From Blautia sp. (GTDB taxonomy: Bacteria > Bacillota > Clostridia > Lachnospirales > Lachnospiraceae), in NCBI GenBank assembly GCA_022769545.1, contig JALEJS010000013.1, positions 62,001-126,000 of the forward strand: a stretch of 64,000 nucleotides of DNA, in the 5' to 3' direction. The translations under genes were made by a program, and so were the position numbers. Below the pieces are notes generated by a model that saw nothing but the letters and a program-made list of their open reading frames with translations, ran no database searches and had not been told where the DNA came from. This document shows, one piece after another, positions 25,645-46,280 of the stretch (position 1 is its first letter; every line of letters begins with the position of its first letter).

Positions 25645-26804
25645 CATCCACCTCCAACGCTTACCATCAGAATCACAAAGATCAGCATTCCAAGCACCTG
25701 CGCCGTCAGAAGAATCCGCATCAGGACAGAACATCCTTCTCCCATCGTCCCAAGAGCCCGCACCATGCGGCGATCCGAAATGGGCTGGCACAGAGCTGCC
25801 AGAAGACGGAATACCAGTGACATTCCGGCATATTTCAGAACCGGCCTGGCGCCCGCAAGAACCAGTGCAAGAAGCACCGCTGTTCCCAGGCTGTTCCGTA
25901 CCAGAACGGCGCTGGAAAGAACCAGCTCCGTTACCATATTCACCGCATTTCCGATCCCCGGAATCGCACCGGCAGTTTTCCCGATCACGCTTCTGCGCAG
26001 TGTATCCAGTATGGGCGCGACCAGATTTTTCACCACCTGCAGACCCACCACCATTCCCAGCATGGTTTTCAGCCCCCAGCCGGTAACCGTTTCCACCAGC
26101 TCTGCCATCTTGCTGAGCATTTCTTCTCTGGACAGATGATTCACCAGTTCCAGAAGGACATACAGATTTGCCGCCGGCAAAAGAACGGCCATAAGTACCC
26201 ACTGGATCATCCAGACCAGCAGGATCACTCCTTCATAAAACACCGCAGCAGAGGACACCCCGGAGGCGGCTGTTACCGCGATCAGATAGGAAGGCATCAG
26301 TGATTTCATAAATTCCGTCATCCATTCCAGCGTATCTGCCAGATCCATGCTCAGGCGCTGAAACAGATTCACGAGCAGAACAAACAGCATCAGGTACGTC
26401 GCATAAAATCCCACCTCACTGATCTGGGCATTCGAAAAGACAGAGCTGAAATTCAGAAACACCGCTCCTGCGATCACCAGCATCAGAATCTTCAGAATCA
26501 TATCCTTCATCTGAAGATATTCCGAAAAAAAAAGACCCCGCAGATATTCCTGCAAAGTCTCTTTGGAAAGGACCGTCTCGCCCGCCATTATTTTTTTTAC
26601 CGCCTCAGAAACAGAAAACGATTTTTCCGGCACCATGCTGTCCAGCAGCTCCTGCACCTGCGTCAGATCCAGCTCCTGAAAAAGCCGTTCCTGTGTGGAA
26701 GACGCTTCTCCTTCCGCTTCGCTGCCCCACACCGGAACCCGGCACAGCCAGAGAAAACCGGCAGCCAGCAGGATCCGGCACAGGAGCCGGCCGTTTTTTC
26801 TCAT
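25644..26804 (-). CDS. spoIIIAE: Stage III sporulation protein AE
   Basis: SpoIIIAE is the polytopic membrane component of the SpoIIIA channel. The 386-residue protein has a cleavable-looking signal peptide (about 1-28), a periplasm-like N-terminal stretch, and about eight hydrophobic helices with the family motif LGLQ-like MVVGLQVVKNLVAPILDTLRRS. It overlaps spoIIIAD by 4 bp and spoIIIAF by 1-4 bp, indicating translational coupling. Confidence 0.94.
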   Translation of the reverse strand: MRKNGRLLCRILLAAGFLWLCRVPVWGSEAEGEASSTQERLFQELDLTQVQELLDSMVPEKSFSVSEAVKKIMAGETVLSKETLQEYLRGLFFSEYLQMKDMILKILMLVIAGAVFLNFSSVFSNAQISEVGFYATYLMLFVLLVNLFQRLSMDLADTLEWMTEFMKSLMPSYLIAVTAASGVSSAAVFYEGVILLVWMIQWVLMAVLLPAANLYVLLELVNHLSREEMLSKMAELVETVTGWGLKTMLGMVVGLQVVKNLVAPILDTLRRSVIGKTAGAIPGIGNAVNMVTELVLSSAVLVRNSLGTAVLLALVLAGARPVLKYAGMSLVFRLLAALCQPISDRRMVRALGTMGEGCSVLMRILLTAQVLGMLIFVILMVSVGGG

Positions 26805-40770: not shown

Positions 40771-40916
40771 AAAGGTACATTGCCCTAAAACATTTTTTTG
40801 CATTTGTTGAAGCATGCCGTATGATGTACGATTGGCTGAACGGATTTTCACAATTTCACCCATCACGGCAATCCGCATAAAATATAATGTAATTGCTTTT
40901 ATGAAAGGATTTGTCC

Positions 40917-41243
40917 ATGGATAATTATAGAATGAGCCGTCCGGGATGCCGCCCGTATCAGCATACCTGCGGCATGAACAGACCATCTGTCCCGTCCCGG
41001 GAACGGGCAGCGGAAGCTTCCGATGACAGCTGTCCGAAGGACGACTGCAGCTGTCACATGCCCGGTACCGTCTCGAAAGACCGGGAAATGTATGAGCACC
41101 TGAATCATCTGCGCACAGGAATGGGATATGTTCCCTGCCAGAAATTCACAGAATTGTACACACCGGAATTCGGACTTCAGGTCGGAACCATCTTCCCGGA
41201 TCTGTGTAAACCCTTCTGTGGAAAAAGGAGGTGCTGTCGATGA
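40917..41243 (+). CDS. cotJA: Spore coat-associated protein CotJA
   Basis: This 108-residue protein has a Cys-rich, variable N-terminal half and the CotJA signature at its end, FTELYTPEFGLQVGTIFPDLCKPF. CotJA is co-expressed with CotJB and CotJC in the mother cell under sigma-E in B. subtilis and is required for CotJC assembly there. The ATG at 40917 follows AAAGGAT. It overlaps cotJB by 4 bp. Confidence 0.88.
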   Translation: MDNYRMSRPGCRPYQHTCGMNRPSVPSRERAAEASDDSCPKDDCSCHMPGTVSKDREMYEHLNHLRTGMGYVPCQKFTELYTPEFGLQVGTIFPDLCKPFCGKRRCCR

Positions 41244-41518
41244 GAAATGAGCGTCCTTCCCAGACACGTATGATGAGGGAAATCGACGAAGTCAGTTTCG
41301 TGATCAGTGATCTGATCCTTTTCTTAAATACACATCCCTGTGACAAAGAAGCGCTTGCCTGTTTTGAAAAAATGTCAGGCAAGCGCAATGGGCTTTTAAA
41401 AGAATATGCAGAGTATTATGGTCCTCTGACCATTGACACCGCCGCAGGCAGCTGCGGTGATACCTGGAAATGGATGGAACAGCCATTTCCGTGGGAACCG
41501 AAAGGAGGGTGCCGATAA
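41240..41518 (+). CDS. cotJB: Spore coat protein CotJB
   Basis: This 92-residue protein carries the CotJB pattern: IDEVSFVISDLILFLNTHPCDKEALACFEK and YYGPLTI, ending WKWMEQPFPWE. It begins at the ATG after AAGGAGGTGCTGTCG and precedes cotJC by 3 bp. It is the middle gene of cotJABC. Confidence 0.92.
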   Translation: MRNERPSQTRMMREIDEVSFVISDLILFLNTHPCDKEALACFEKMSGKRNGLLKEYAEYYGPLTIDTAAGSCGDTWKWMEQPFPWEPKGGCR

Positions 41519-41521
41519 CGT

Positions 41522-41714
41522 ATGTGGAACTATGAAAAAAGGCTTCAGTATCCCATAAATATCACAACTCCCAACGCCAAACTGGCGCAGTTCATAGCCA
41601 GCCAATACGGAGGCCCTGACGGCGAAATCGCCGCCTCTCTTCGCTATCTGTCTCAGCGTTTCGCCATGTCAAACCGCATGGTGATCGCCACTTTGACCGA
41701 TATCGGTACCGAAG
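41522..41714 (+). CDS. cotJC: CotJC manganese catalase-like coat protein, 5' part (interrupted)
   Basis: These 64 codons encode the N-terminus of CotJC (MWNYEKRLQYPINIT start), a ferritin-like dimanganese catalase of the spore coat, including the first ligand E35 in GGPDGEIAASLRYL. The coding sequence stops matching the family after LTDIGTE, at the 10-bp repeat GGTACCGAAG. Reading on into the element gives unrelated residues from DNA antisense to the kinase gene. The remainder of cotJC resumes at 45829. Joining 41714 to 45829 gives an uninterrupted 214-residue protein. Confidence 0.93.
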
Positions 41715-41719
41715 CATCG
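41705..41719 (+). repeat. Left attachment site of the cotJC element
   Basis: The core repeat GGTACCGAAG (41705-41714) belongs both to cotJC and to the element. Bases 41707-41719 (TACCGAAGCATCG) form one arm that is a 12-of-13 inverted match to the arm at the other end of the element (45806-45818). Confidence 0.85.
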
Positions 41720-41729
41720 AACGGAAATA

Positions 41730-44549
41730 TCATTCCTGTTTTCCATTCTTCCGATCATAGATTTCCTTCAGATGACCGTAAAGCTCCTTCACATCAATGG
41801 GCTTGGAAATATGTGCATTCATTCCGGCCTCCACGGATGCCTGCACATCCTCACTTCCGGAGTTTGCCGACAGTGCAAATACCGGCAGGCCGGCATCTTT
41901 GCGGTGTGATCCCCGAATCCTCCGGCTGGCTTCCAGACCATTCATCACAGGCATCTGCAGATCCATCAGAATCACATCATAGAAGCCTTCTTCGGATGCC
42001 TGAAACTTCTCCACACCGTCCATTCCGTTCTCCGCCCAGTCCACAGATACTCCCATGTCCTCAAGCAGTACCAGGGCAATTTCCCGGTTCAGCTCATTAT
42101 CCTCGACCAGGAGCAGGCGAAGTCCATGCAGCATTCCCTGCTCTTCGCATTTTTCCGCCGGTTCCGGTTTTGCCTCTTCCTTCTTCGGCTCTTCCGGCAG
42201 GATTTCCAGCGGAATCCGCACTGTGAATTCCGTTCCGGAACCCTCTTTGCTTTCCATCCGGATATTTCCATCCATAAGTTCCACAAATGCCCTTACAATG
42301 GTCAGGCCAAGTCCCGTCCCCTGTACGCGGGACACTCTGGAATCCTCTGCCCGGAAAAATGCCTCATAAACCATAGTCTGATACTGTTCCGGAATTCCCA
42401 TGCCGTTGTCCTTCACCTGGAAGCAGAATACGCCATCCGGCTCTGCAAACGCCTTCAGACAGATTTCGCCTCCTGTCTGTGTATATTTCACGGCATTTCC
42501 AAGAAGATTCAGCAGAACCTGCTGGATTTTCCGGAAATCTCCATTCACATTCCTGTCGGGAATTCCCTCCAGATCCACCGTGAATTTCTGCTTCTTCGCA
42601 TCGCTTAGCGGTCTGACCATCACAGCTGTTTCTTCCAGCATATTGCGAATCAGAAATGGCTGTTTCTTTATCATAAGAGTCCCGTCTTCAATCTGACTCA
42701 TGTCCAGAATCTGATTGAGCATCGTGAGCATATACTGCTCGGAAACACGCATCTTTTCCACATATTCCCGAACCGTTTTCTGATCGGAAGCATTGCGCTC
42801 CACCACCTCCGTCATCCCGATGATGGCATTCATCGGCGTTCGGATATCATGACTCATTTTGGAGAAAAAGTCTCTCTTAACGTTATTTGCTGCCCGCAGC
42901 TTATCATAGGCAGCCTGCAGCTTTTTCTGATTTTTTTTGCTGATCACTGCAATTGCTGCAATGCACAGAAAAAGTATCGAGGCCGCCACCAGAAGCATTC
43001 CGTACAGAGGATTGCGGTACAGAAATTCCCTCAGTCCCTGTTCCTGGTGCAGGTGCTCTGTCTTTTCCAGAATGATGCTTTCCGCCTCTGTATTTTTAAT
43101 TCGCCCCATCACCTTATTCAGTGATGTGAGCAGATTGCTGTCACAGTCTCTGCGGACACCGATCGAAAAAGAGACATATCCGCCTCCCATGATACCGGAG
43201 ACAAATCTGTCATAAAAATCCTCATTCATGATTTCCTGCACGGTATAGGTATAGAAAAAGGCCGCGTCCGCTTCGCCTTTTTCCACCGCATTCACACATT
43301 CCTCTATGGAATCATAATATCGGATTTCCTTCCCGGCAAAATGATCTTCCAGATATTCTGTCAGAAGAAACGGTTTTTCCATCGACGCAATGGATTTCAT
43401 CTCTCCGGTGAAATCTCTCCGTGTGATTTTCGAGAAACCGGTGGACATATAAGCGTCCGTGATCTCAAAGCCGATCTCCTCCGCCTCGGAATAATCCGAT
43501 CCGCAGTCCATACAGATGTCTGCTTCCCCGGCTTCCAGCTTCTGATAATATTCCTCTCTGCTGCCGGTTTCCAGAACCTCATACGCAATGCCGAGCTGAC
43601 CGGCTGCCCGCTCAAAAATTGCCGGAATGATTCCCTTTGCCTCCCCGTTCTCAAAATAAGAATAAGGACTTCTGTCCGGATTTACCAGAACCTTCAAAAC
43701 GGTCTTCTGCTCTTTCAGAGCATCGATATATTCCTGCTCCTCTCTGGTAAGAGATATATTCTCCTCATCGTATTCCATGTAGGATTTATGCATCAGACTG
43801 GTTCGCCAGCCCGGTTCATCCCGGTCAAGCAGCTCGATTGCCGCATCGATTTCATCCAGAATTTCCCGCTCTCCCTTGGGCGCCATCACGTAAAAATCAT
43901 TATGGTCAAACTGCTCAATCACCCATTCATTTCCCAGCTTTCTCAGATTACTGCTGACGATTCCGTCAAGGACTCCCGTCTGAAGATCCTCCGCCATCTC
44001 AGAATAGGTGTCATAATACACTCCTTCGTACTCAAATCCCTTTTCCTTTGCAAATTCCTGAAAACGCTCATTCCGATAGCTGTTTTTCAGAAATCCCAGC
44101 CTCGCTCCCTGATACGTTTTATAATCCTTCGGAACAAAACGCTCATCCCCTGCCTTCACCGCAATCATCGTGACCGTCGTTCCGATTGCATTCTCCGAAT
44201 ACTCGTAGCGCTTCTCGCGCTCCTCGGTCTTTCCGCCGGAGGTAAGAATATCAATCTCCCCCCGCTCCAGCATTTCCAGCATTTCCTGCCAGCTTTTGTC
44301 ATAGCCCACATACTCATATGTATAAGGCAGATACCGGCCGACTTTCTGAAGAAATTCATAGCCATAGCCGGAACGATGGCCGTCCTCATCCTGCATGTGA
44401 TACCCGTCAAGAGCATAATACCCCACACGAACCACCTGTTCTTCTGCCCGGACCTGCACGGGAAGCAGAGTCAAAAGCCACAGGATCACACATACCATAC
44501 CGTAACGCATAAAAACATGATGATTTTTTCGCACTCCCGGATTTCTCAT
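41730..44549 (-). CDS. Hybrid sensor histidine kinase with two SBP domains
   Basis: This 939-residue protein has a signal peptide (about 14-35), two tandem extracellular SBP_bac_3-like domains (about 38-255 and 283-500), a transmembrane helix (about 515-536), a HisKA domain with phospho-acceptor H567 (KMSHDIRTPMN), an HATPase domain (N685, DNGMGIP, GTGLGLTI) and a C-terminal receiver domain with D863 (ILMDLQMP) and K916. Such kinases sense small ligands, often amino acids, and normally pass phosphate to an HPt protein; none is encoded nearby. The gene lies wholly inside the cotJC element, opposite to cotJC. Confidence 0.93.
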   Translation of the reverse strand: MRNPGVRKNHHVFMRYGMVCVILWLLTLLPVQVRAEEQVVRVGYYALDGYHMQDEDGHRSGYGYEFLQKVGRYLPYTYEYVGYDKSWQEMLEMLERGEIDILTSGGKTEEREKRYEYSENAIGTTVTMIAVKAGDERFVPKDYKTYQGARLGFLKNSYRNERFQEFAKEKGFEYEGVYYDTYSEMAEDLQTGVLDGIVSSNLRKLGNEWVIEQFDHNDFYVMAPKGEREILDEIDAAIELLDRDEPGWRTSLMHKSYMEYDEENISLTREEQEYIDALKEQKTVLKVLVNPDRSPYSYFENGEAKGIIPAIFERAAGQLGIAYEVLETGSREEYYQKLEAGEADICMDCGSDYSEAEEIGFEITDAYMSTGFSKITRRDFTGEMKSIASMEKPFLLTEYLEDHFAGKEIRYYDSIEECVNAVEKGEADAAFFYTYTVQEIMNEDFYDRFVSGIMGGGYVSFSIGVRRDCDSNLLTSLNKVMGRIKNTEAESIILEKTEHLHQEQGLREFLYRNPLYGMLLVAASILFLCIAAIAVISKKNQKKLQAAYDKLRAANNVKRDFFSKMSHDIRTPMNAIIGMTEVVERNASDQKTVREYVEKMRVSEQYMLTMLNQILDMSQIEDGTLMIKKQPFLIRNMLEETAVMVRPLSDAKKQKFTVDLEGIPDRNVNGDFRKIQQVLLNLLGNAVKYTQTGGEICLKAFAEPDGVFCFQVKDNGMGIPEQYQTMVYEAFFRAEDSRVSRVQGTGLGLTIVRAFVELMDGNIRMESKEGSGTEFTVRIPLEILPEEPKKEEAKPEPAEKCEEQGMLHGLRLLLVEDNELNREIALVLLEDMGVSVDWAENGMDGVEKFQASEEGFYDVILMDLQMPVMNGLEASRRIRGSHRKDAGLPVFALSANSGSEDVQASVEAGMNAHISKPIDVKELYGHLKEIYDRKNGKQE

Positions 44550-44746
44550 CTGAACATTCCTTCCTGAGTTTATTTTTTACTGCTGGCGTTACTATATAAA
44601 AATTATTGATTTACCTTAAAATTCTTTTTTATTATACACTATTTTCGGCGGTAAATCCACTTGAAATAATCTTCTTTTTCTTTTTATCCATCCCTTTTTT
44701 CTACGATTTTCCTACGAATCTTCCGGCGATTTTCCCCTTTTTCCAT

Positions 44747-45676
44747 TCATGCTTTGTGTCTGTTCTTCCGGGTATTTGCTCTTTCATCCAGCATGCGGTT
44801 TGCTTCCTCAAACAGCTCTCTGGAAACGATCGGCTCATGATGATCCCGCAAAATAATAAATTCCTCCTGACCCCTGTTATATTTTTTCTCATGGGTCAGA
44901 TAATCGGGTGTATATGTCTTTTTCTGCACCAGGTCTCCGCAGTATTTTTCGTTTCGCAGAATCCGCAGAATCACCGAATTCTGCCACTCCTTTCCCCGCA
45001 TCGGAGTGATTCCCTCCTGCTTCAGTTCACGGGCAATCGTGTGTGTTCCCTTTCCCTCCAGGACAAACTTCTGAAAGATCAGACGCACCGTCCCGGCCCC
45101 CTCTTCATTCAGAAACATCCTGCCGCCGCGTACATCATATCCAAGCATGCTTCTTCCGAATACCACGCCCTGCTCCATCCTGCGTTTCTGTCCCCACTTC
45201 ACCCGCTCCGATGTCTTCCGGCTCTCCTCCTGGGCAATGGAGGACAAAATCGCCAGCCGAAGCTCTGCATCCGGATCCAGCGTATTGATGTTGTCACTCA
45301 TAAAGATCACACCCACCCCATGGGCTTTCAGCTCACGGGTATAATAGATACTGTCCAGCGTATTTCTGGCAAATCTGGAGATTTCCTTTGTGATAATCAG
45401 ATCGATCTTCCCCTCCAGGGCACTGCGGATCATACGCTGAAATTCCCTTCTTTTTTTCGTGTTTGTCCCGGATATTCCCTCATCTGCAAAGATATCATAA
45501 AGCTCCCAGCATGGATTTGCCTCAATATACCGCCGAAAAAAAGCACACTGATTTTCAAAGGAATTTGCCTGATCCTCTCGATCCGTGGAAACACGGCAAT
45601 ATGCAGCCACTTTTTTCACGGAATCCCTGTTTCTGCGCTCCAGGTTCATACGCTCATAACGGTTCCTGCTGCCCAT
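44747..45676 (-). CDS. Compact serine recombinase of the cotJC element (SpoIVCA-like)
   Basis: This 309-residue protein has a serine resolvase catalytic domain (about 20-165) with nucleophile S30 in AAYCRVSTDRED, GISGT, and arginines in KEISRFARN (R101, R104). A Recombinase domain (about 185-285: GYDVRGG, KGTHTIARELKQEGI, ILRNEKYCGDLVQKK) follows. It ends after HEPIVSRELFEEANRML without the zinc ribbon and coiled coil usual in 450-550-residue large serine recombinases such as SpoIVCA. The ATG follows GGGAGGAAGGAACT. Its position beside the right end and the att sites imply that it excises the element. Confidence 0.9.
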   Translation of the reverse strand: MGSRNRYERMNLERRNRDSVKKVAAYCRVSTDREDQANSFENQCAFFRRYIEANPCWELYDIFADEGISGTNTKKRREFQRMIRSALEGKIDLIITKEISRFARNTLDSIYYTRELKAHGVGVIFMSDNINTLDPDAELRLAILSSIAQEESRKTSERVKWGQKRRMEQGVVFGRSMLGYDVRGGRMFLNEEGAGTVRLIFQKFVLEGKGTHTIARELKQEGITPMRGKEWQNSVILRILRNEKYCGDLVQKKTYTPDYLTHEKKYNRGQEEFIILRDHHEPIVSRELFEEANRMLDERANTRKNRHKA

Positions 45677-45732
45677 AGTTCCTTCCTCCCGCCGCTGTAC
45701 GGAACTCTGCGGTACGGCCCCTTCTTCCTCTC

Positions 45733-45762
45733 AGTATATGCAGCAGTGCCTGTCCGATATCC
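45733..45762 (-). promoter_or_regulatory. Sigma-E-like promoter of the element recombinase
   Basis: On the minus strand GGATATC (45756-45762), 15 bp, CATATACT (45733-45740). The -10 matches seven of eight positions of CATACAnT and the -35 about five of seven of KMATATT, with consensus spacing. A strong ribosome binding site lies before the ATG about 57 bp on. Mother-cell expression of the recombinase would fit the model of skin-type excision. Confidence 0.5.
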
Positions 45763-45805
45763 CGGCCGGAACTCTCCACGGAAGCTTCGGATTCTTTTCA
45801 TCCTG

Positions 45806-45828
45806 CGATGCTTCTGTAGGTACCGAAG
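45806..45828 (+). repeat. Right attachment site of the cotJC element
   Basis: The arm CGATGCTTCTGTA (45806-45818) is followed by the second core copy GGTACCGAAG (45819-45828), which is continuous with the cotJC 3' part. When the element ends are joined, this arm and the left-end arm face each other around GG as a near-perfect palindrome. Confidence 0.85.
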
Positions 45829-46280
45829 AACTGGCGCACATGGAAATGATCGCCACCATTGTCCATCAGCTTACCCGCGATCTCTCCATGGAGGAAATCG
45901 AAAACTCCGGACTGGGTCCTTATTATATCGACCACACGGTAGGGATCTGGCCACAGGCGGCAGGCGGTATCCCGCTCAATGCCTGCGAATTCCAGTCCAA
46001 GGGAGATCCCATCACCGACCTGTTTGAGGATCTTGCCGCAGAGCAGAAAGCCCGCTCCACCTACGACAACATCCTGCGGGTCGTAAAAAACATGCCGGAA
46101 ATCGCGGATCCCATCCGCTTTTTGCGTGCCCGTGAAATCGTTCATTTCCAGCGGTTCGGAGAAGCGCTGCGCGCAGTGCAGGAGGAGCTGGATGCCAAAA
46201 ACTTCTATGCCTTCAATCCGGTCTTTGACGAACCCTGCATGGCCACCTGTGACTGCCCGGACAAAGAAAAAATGTCATAA
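45829..46280 (+). CDS. cotJC: CotJC manganese catalase-like coat protein, 3' part (interrupted)
   Basis: This part encodes residues 65-214 of CotJC: the ligand motif E65-L-A-H68 in EELAHMEMIATIVHQL, HTVGIWPQAAGGIPLNACEFQSKGDPITDLFEDLAAEQKARSTYDNIL, and REIVHFQRFGEAL with the last His ligand. It has no start codon or ribosome site of its own and would not make an active protein alone. In the excised form it is fused to the 5' part with no extra or missing bases. CotJC-type proteins are dimanganese catalases expected to degrade hydrogen peroxide at the spore coat. Confidence 0.93.

Follow-up and report, generated by a model that had tools for sequence, protein, structure and literature searches.

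We analysed a stretch of 64,000 nucleotides from Blautia sp. (contig JALEJS010000013.1, positions 62,001 to 126,000), hereafter the window. Its spore coat gene cotJC is split by an element of 4,114 bp. The element probably belongs to a family that inserts at codon Gly62 of cotJC, and its excision in the mother cell would rebuild the gene. The window copy seems to be a reduced form, with a recombinase that would only excise. The genomes compared below indicate that the finding reaches beyond one gene in one genome.

The split gene and its element

The cotJ operon spans 40911-46280 on the + strand (Table 1). CotJA, CotJB and both halves of CotJC match their own Pfam families, and the break in cotJC falls after codon 61. 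An earlier note on this DNA had placed the two halves 4.1 kb apart, with the same repeat at both ends of the insert. Both claims hold. The repeat spacing is 4,114 bp, both halves match PF05067 (CotJC / manganese catalase), and GGTACCGAAG occurs at 41705 and 45819 and nowhere else in the window on either strand. Joining the flanks in silico, with one repeat copy and the intervening DNA removed, reproduces the 214-residue in-frame protein that had been claimed, reading G62-T-E-E65-L-A-H68. The motif GTEELAH (E65, H68) is present in this rebuilt frame. It is not missing from each lone fragment, as had been stated, because the repeat copy lies within the right-hand open reading frame (ORF, 45738-46280), which contains it. 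The insert also has its own serine recombinase, whose shortness had been missed.

Position inside the coding sequence of a sporulation gene, a short end repeat whose precise removal restores the frame, and an encoded serine recombinase are features of sporulation gene-intervening elements. No phage genes are present in the window element. The best relatives of its sensor kinase, among the matches listed in 64 genomes of the genus, are 34-39% identical. A kinase cargo common to the elements of the genus was rejected, as these matches include no close relative.

Table 1. Features of the cotJ region, with the spoIIIAE match as context
Feature	Position	Strand	Basis
cotJA	40911..41243	+	PF11007, E 1.6e-14
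cotJB	41231..41518	+	PF12652, E 1.1e-27
cotJC codons 1-61	41522..41704	+	PF05067 profile 1-65 (of 284); CotJC alignment extends through the repeat to codon 64
Left attachment site (attL)	41692..41719	+	crossover GG 41705-41706; repeat GGTACCGAAG 41705-41714; putative arms
Element, 4,114 bp	41705..45818		direct-repeat spacing, junction analysis
Cargo hybrid sensor histidine kinase, 939 amino acids	41730..44549	-	SBP_bac_3 twice, HisKA, HATPase_c, Response_reg
Short serine recombinase, 309 amino acids	44747..45676	-	PF00239 and PF07508 matched, PF13408 (zinc ribbon) not
Possible sigma-E-like box before recombinase	45733..45761	-	GATATCGG, 13 bases, CATATACT; shuffle p 0.037, sought post hoc
Right attachment site (attR)	45806..45833	+	crossover GG 45819-45820; repeat 45819-45828; putative arms
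cotJC codon 62 to stop	45819..46280	+	PF05067 profile 60-198 (of 284)
spoIIIAE match (context)	25668..26711	-	TIGR02829, E 6.6e-43; under curated cut-off in 12/12 matching genomes

The assembly holding the window (G000; labels in G are genomes, labels in L are loci) has 50 contigs and is 91% complete. It contains a SigG match (E 1.2e-131), which is below the curated cut-off, likewise in all matching relatives, and the SpoIIIAE match of Table 1. On these two matches, a host without sporulation genes was rejected. The only cotJC copy found in G000 is the split one. For B. subtilis, a published listing puts cotJC under sigma E (PMC3416734; papers are cited by PMC identifier).

Recurrent splitting of cotJC at conserved codons

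The earlier note had suggested a comparison with related genomes that have an intact cotJC. A cotJC match at E 1e-6 is found in 44 of 64 genomes of the genus. By our reading of the match table, the gene is intact in 19, split on one contig in 14, spread over separate contigs in 7 and present as a single piece in 4. As control we used one gene, SpoIVA, more than twice as long as cotJC, in the same genomes. It is matched in 42. In 37 of them the match is full-length; of the 5 partial cases, two lie at the start of a contig, two consist of adjacent pieces and one (G017) is unexplained. No case of two pieces far apart on one contig was found for SpoIVA in these 42 genomes. Split against intact, 14/19 for cotJC and 0/37 for SpoIVA, gives a Fisher p of 4e-6. 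We also classed 80 named loci by the start of the best alignment. These are the best matches to the 3' half of cotJC, a sample biased by its query. Of the 80, 62 are intact. Among the others, the alignment starts near codon 62 in 8, near codon 31 in 7 and elsewhere in 2, and 1 lies at a contig edge. Isolates in which cotJC appears to be split include Bacterium 1XD8-76 (L065) and Cuneatibacter sp. NSJ-177 (L105). The best named matches to cotJC come largely from Lachnospiraceae records.

Resolved inserts number 21 in 20 loci (20 without L091) and range from 2.1 to 54.9 kb. L091, from a record titled Clostridium sp. E02, was excluded from statements on joined frames (18 of 19 remain) and junctions (20 of 21 remain). 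It is still counted among the seven loci split near codon 31 and the seven Gly31 rows of the recombinase tree. The 18 joined frames have 200-214 codons each and no internal stops; this is no independent test, because the register of the join came from the protein alignment. Since relatives carry different elements at the same few codons, cotJC seems to be a preferred insertion target, and the elements that use it are probably excised at spore formation.

The attP sites (phage-type attachment sites), rebuilt from the insert ends, locate the crossovers. The best attP centre coincides with the first two bases of a conserved codon in 20/21 inserts: GG of Gly31, GG of Gly62, GA of Glu136 or GA of Glu176. 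The attP palindrome reaches p <= 0.02 against shuffles in 18/21. The exceptions are G024 (0.16), G255 (0.19) and, in G358, the Gly62 insert with its two recombinase genes (0.79). The window attP is nearly palindromic about the GG of codon 62: 14/20 arm positions pair, and 0/500 shuffles do as well. A chance repeat was rejected on this palindrome and on the recurrence of the junction codon in other genomes. Judging from the junctions, Gly62 of cotJC is a site-specific target.

The recombinases group by junction codon. The tree has 29 rows, five pattern-picked ORFs that are not recombinases having been removed beforehand, and the tool warns of long branches. Among labelled rows, those of Gly31 (7 rows), Gly62 (11) and Glu136 (3) each form one side of a branch, with supports of 100/100, 99/98 and 100/100. 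Glu176 is a single long row. The Gly62 side also includes L159 and L161, which are not known to be cotJC inserts. A wider search scored up to five candidates per genome in 397 genomes of the family. At least 24 matches in at least 23 genomes, window included, pass the threshold of E 1e-95. At 16 of the 23 other loci a cotJC fragment lies within the fetched stretch, and at one further locus (G434) it lies in a longer stretch. By sequence, the solved SPbeta integrase YokA and the full-length enzyme of G014 are distantly related.

Selective constraint was estimated from 24 rows, 22 of them from the genus and the other two G255 and L040. The medians of the ratio of non-synonymous to synonymous substitution rates (dN/dS) refer to usable pairs: 0.039 for split-split (29/91), 0.036 for intact-intact (18/45) and 0.033 for split-intact (39/140). 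Most pairs approach saturation at synonymous sites. Family-wide, split halves appear about as constrained as intact genes. The window cotJC, compared with the intact set, has a ratio of non-synonymous to synonymous differences (pN/pS) of 0.121. G024 and G364 carry the same Gly62 element (two serine dehydratase genes, a small ORF and a recombinase). Their dS is 0.85, 0.80 and 1.07 in the element's three long genes, 0.88 in cotJC and 0.58-1.07 in four upstream frames. The element and its flanks having about the same dS, the insertion seems about as old as the species split. Such an old insertion with a cotJC dN/dS of 0.020 is hard to explain unless the gene is rebuilt. We consider this pair good indirect evidence that split cotJC genes are rebuilt. 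G004, with a 39-kb insert, and G372, with none, encode an identical CotJC of 207 amino acids despite 26 nucleotide differences.

Several loci show unusual arrangements. Inspection by eye of the Gly62 insert at L060:5626-10018 shows a cotJA/cotJB-like frame of its own and a complete second cotJC (about 67% identity), so this element splits cotJC and may bring a spare copy. At G358:C1:200998-242552 (L188, L204, L205) cotJC lies in three pieces; the insert at Gly62, with two recombinase genes, spans about 12 kb and the one at Glu136 spans 29 kb. In G052, of another family, contigs C2, C15 and C5 (L144-L147) hold cotJC-like pieces 1-31, 28-65, 63-136 and 134-191 apart from each other, which suggests three inserts. 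The IMG/VR viral contigs L186, L187 and L219 hold inner cotJC pieces (residues 30-62, 30-79 and 63-136), like small exons between elements. The search of viral contigs gave four recombinase loci and two cotJC loci; we do not accept these contigs as evidence of excision. MT839280.1 (L261) and MT837874.1 (L262) are unannotated human faecal records filed as phage, each with a Gly62-like recombinase and a cotJC piece. As for cargo, the Gly62 inserts of G024 (L190) and G364 (L189) carry an L-serine dehydratase alpha/beta pair. Those of G090 (L253) and G434 (L252) include, by eye, a Spo0A-like response regulator, that is, a sporulation regulator within an element within a sporulation gene.

The short recombinase, its attachment site and its control

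Resolvase, recombinase and zinc ribbon domains are present in 7/7 relatives scanned, five of them from Gly62. The window enzyme has the catalytic and recombinase domains typical of large serine integrases. Neither the domain scan nor the alignment found in it a zinc ribbon (PF13408), the domain that contains the coiled coil. The enzymes of G434 and of G405, a single-contig genome, also end just before the zinc ribbon. In the alignment, 1 residue (window), 7 (G405) and 5 (G434) separate the end of the enzyme from the NRYPFSGK stretch of G014. The recombinase genes of the window and G405 both sit at the end of the element next to the 3' part of cotJC, and their starts face attR. An L122-type layout was rejected for the window element, since in that layout the recombinase is at the opposite end. 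The three short enzymes require at least two origins on the tree, which does not resolve the relation of the window to G405; a single clear origin is unsupported. The window and G405 enzymes keep 72/72 columns that are invariant in 36 other rows, and G434 departs at one. Their pN/pS is 0.19 and 0.22, and ten others computed range over 0.13-0.23.

The attachment site of these elements has changed too. Symmetry of attP about the central dinucleotide, a trait of large serine integrases, is strong in the inner part of the window site (12/13) and of the G405 site (13/13). Outer pairing is 4/12 and 5/12, near chance, against 9-11/12 in the full-length relatives G014, G255, L115, L054 and G329. Among 13 Gly62 elements, which give 78 possible pairs, none of the other pairs has as extreme an inner-minus-outer difference as the window and G405; the hypothesis was formed on the window, and the other elements were computed afterwards. 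In the LI (A118) integrase, the recombinase and zinc domains jointly cover the attP half-site (PMC3783163). The window element fits an enzyme that gave up its outer attP contacts.

Six loci whose recombinases are close to that of the window have a small ORF upstream of the recombinase gene. In 4/6 this ORF follows a box like GTTATAT-N-CATATATT, by a pattern drawn up post hoc. Six further loci have the same box in 2/6 (G191 and G392; shuffle 6e-5), which gives 6/12 loci in total. We take this box to resemble sigma-E promoters. In the short elements such a box, though a weaker one, precedes the recombinase itself (p 0.037 in the window, 0.03 in G405 and 0.17 in G434). A pattern scan found no sigma-E-like box before cotJA. 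One wrong row (L059) spoilt the alignment of upstream regions, which is unused; the pattern counts are kept. The window has no relative of four small ORFs from related elements, and directionality factors share little sequence. According to the paper on the gin element, sporulation controls the factor in some elements and the recombinase in others (PMC5595907). We propose that the full-length and short forms may match these factor-controlled and recombinase-controlled designs.

Competing explanations and known systems

The explanation we favour, with fair but incomplete confidence, is that the insert is a site-specific serine-recombinase element of the Gly62 family. It would remain in the vegetative chromosome and carry the sensor kinase as cargo. 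During sporulation the recombinase would cut attL and attR in the mother cell, at the GG of codon 62, and release a circle, and so restore the sole cotJC copy found in G000. Full-length relatives would probably excise through a small directionality factor under a sporulation promoter. In the window copy, the recombinase would be reduced to its catalytic and recombinase domains and attP to its inner palindrome. We infer an excision-only resolvase that would need no directionality factor and would be timed by its own promoter. Deletion mutants of the LI integrase offer an experimental likeness (PMC3783163). The form deltaZD (1-264) has about the same domain content as the window enzyme, and the coiled-coil deletion deltaCC acts as an unregulated resolvase, capable of factor-free excision on attL x attR but not of integration. 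However, these deletion mutants are laboratory-made, whereas the window short form is natural. By title or abstract start, none of the open PubMed Central papers listed describes a natural integrase free of the zinc ribbon.

Several points weigh against this explanation. No excision was observed. Binding of the LI zinc-domain deletion deltaZD to its sites is about 25-fold weaker (PMC3783163). The sigma-E-like box of the window is weak and was sought after the fact. G329 has an inner attP of 12/13 though its enzyme is full-length, L096 leans the same way as the short elements (inner 10, outer 6), and G182 has neither arm (5 and 0). The window cotJC halves show pN/pS of 0.16 (N) and 0.10 (C) against 0.08 and 0.08 for intact G005, so constraint on them may be weaker. 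G434 has a full-length sister, G090, with the same cargo; the loss there therefore looks like a recent deletion. Finally, the profile search of G000 gave no match for SpoIVA despite those for SigG and SpoIIIAE, which reflects either an assembly gap or a real loss.

The main rival, which we consider rather unlikely, is a locked fossil. The element would have arrived site-specifically and then lost the recombinase C-terminus and the directionality factor; it would now be stuck, with cotJC dead in this lineage. The missing zinc ribbon, the absence of a recognised factor, the weakened binding of the LI deletion, the less constrained halves, the short G434 enzyme beside its full-length sister and the unmatched SpoIVA all speak for it. 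Nevertheless, both cotJC halves are open and the window pN/pS lies inside the intact range of 0.076-0.136. The short recombinase keeps every invariant column, with a pN/pS within the full-length range, and G405 repeats the same layout and the same attP change. An ordinary integrative element, excising at a low rate in cells of any kind so that enough cells have an intact cotJC, with no developmental timing, seems improbable. For C. botulinum, every time point tested showed part of the culture with the yin element excised (PMC10747680), and serine integrase elements enter many kinds of genes (PMC10083194). However, splits concentrate in a sporulation-only gene and not in SpoIVA, and the sigma-E-like box precedes the small ORF in half of the loci tested. 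An assembly artefact is hardly credible. The fragmented, incomplete assembly would allow one, but comparable inserts occupy the same codon in independent genomes, and the short layout also occurs in single-contig G405.

SPbeta in spsM and skin in sigK of Bacillus (PMC5595907, PMC4191935, PMC5025042), and the skin of C. difficile, are likewise serine-recombinase elements that split a sporulation gene, which excision restores. The earlier note had applied the logic of skin and SPbeta to the window. Comparison gives this logic good support for the family (site-specific insertion, exact junctions, constraint, an insertion retained across a species split). It is less sure for the window copy because the recombinase lacks the zinc ribbon, no directionality factor is recognised and the cotJC halves are somewhat less constrained. 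The window element also differs from SPbeta and skin in its target, its lack of phage genes, its short recombinase and in that its excision is a prediction. Like it, gin in gerE (B. cereus ATCC10987) is not a prophage and has a short shared sequence, at which it excises; unlike it, gin has 28.6 kb and three recombinases, required an extra factor (GirX) and lies in another gene (PMC5595907). The yin element also lies inside a coat-related gene, yabG, and its circle was seen. Conversely, it is prophage-like with a full-length zinc-ribbon recombinase, and its authors call it unique (PMC10747680). Among the open PubMed Central papers listed (subscription papers and preprints fall outside this scope), none places an element inside cotJC. 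The nearest is the phi027 prophage of C. difficile R20291, which integrates beside the CotJC homologue cotG/CDR20291_1465. There, the homologue lies downstream of attR and is unsplit (PMC11222575, PMC12122855). The available main text of a serine recombinase survey gave no hit for spore or catalase (PMC10083194).

On a broader proposal we are evenly divided. It holds that cotJC behaves like an intron-bearing gene, entered by four separate serine-recombinase lineages, each at one conserved codon (Gly31, Gly62, Glu136, Glu176) with crossover at the codon's first two bases. Within the Gly62 lineage, a natural excision-only recombinase free of the zinc ribbon and a shortened attP would have evolved together, so that in the mother cell the element could come out of the chromosome factor-free but would have lost the ability to integrate.

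Sporulation genes known to be rearranged number a handful, and in the genus studied here a large share of the genomes have the same coat gene split. With cargo such as a sensor kinase or a serine dehydratase, the elements suggest that the coat gene is a safe place for hitch-hiking genes. The separate recombinase lineages in cotJC make the adoption of developmental genes by integrases, and the taming of these elements, open to study. A pairing of short recombinase and short site would exemplify the loss of directionality in nature, and would offer a compact candidate for excision in one direction.

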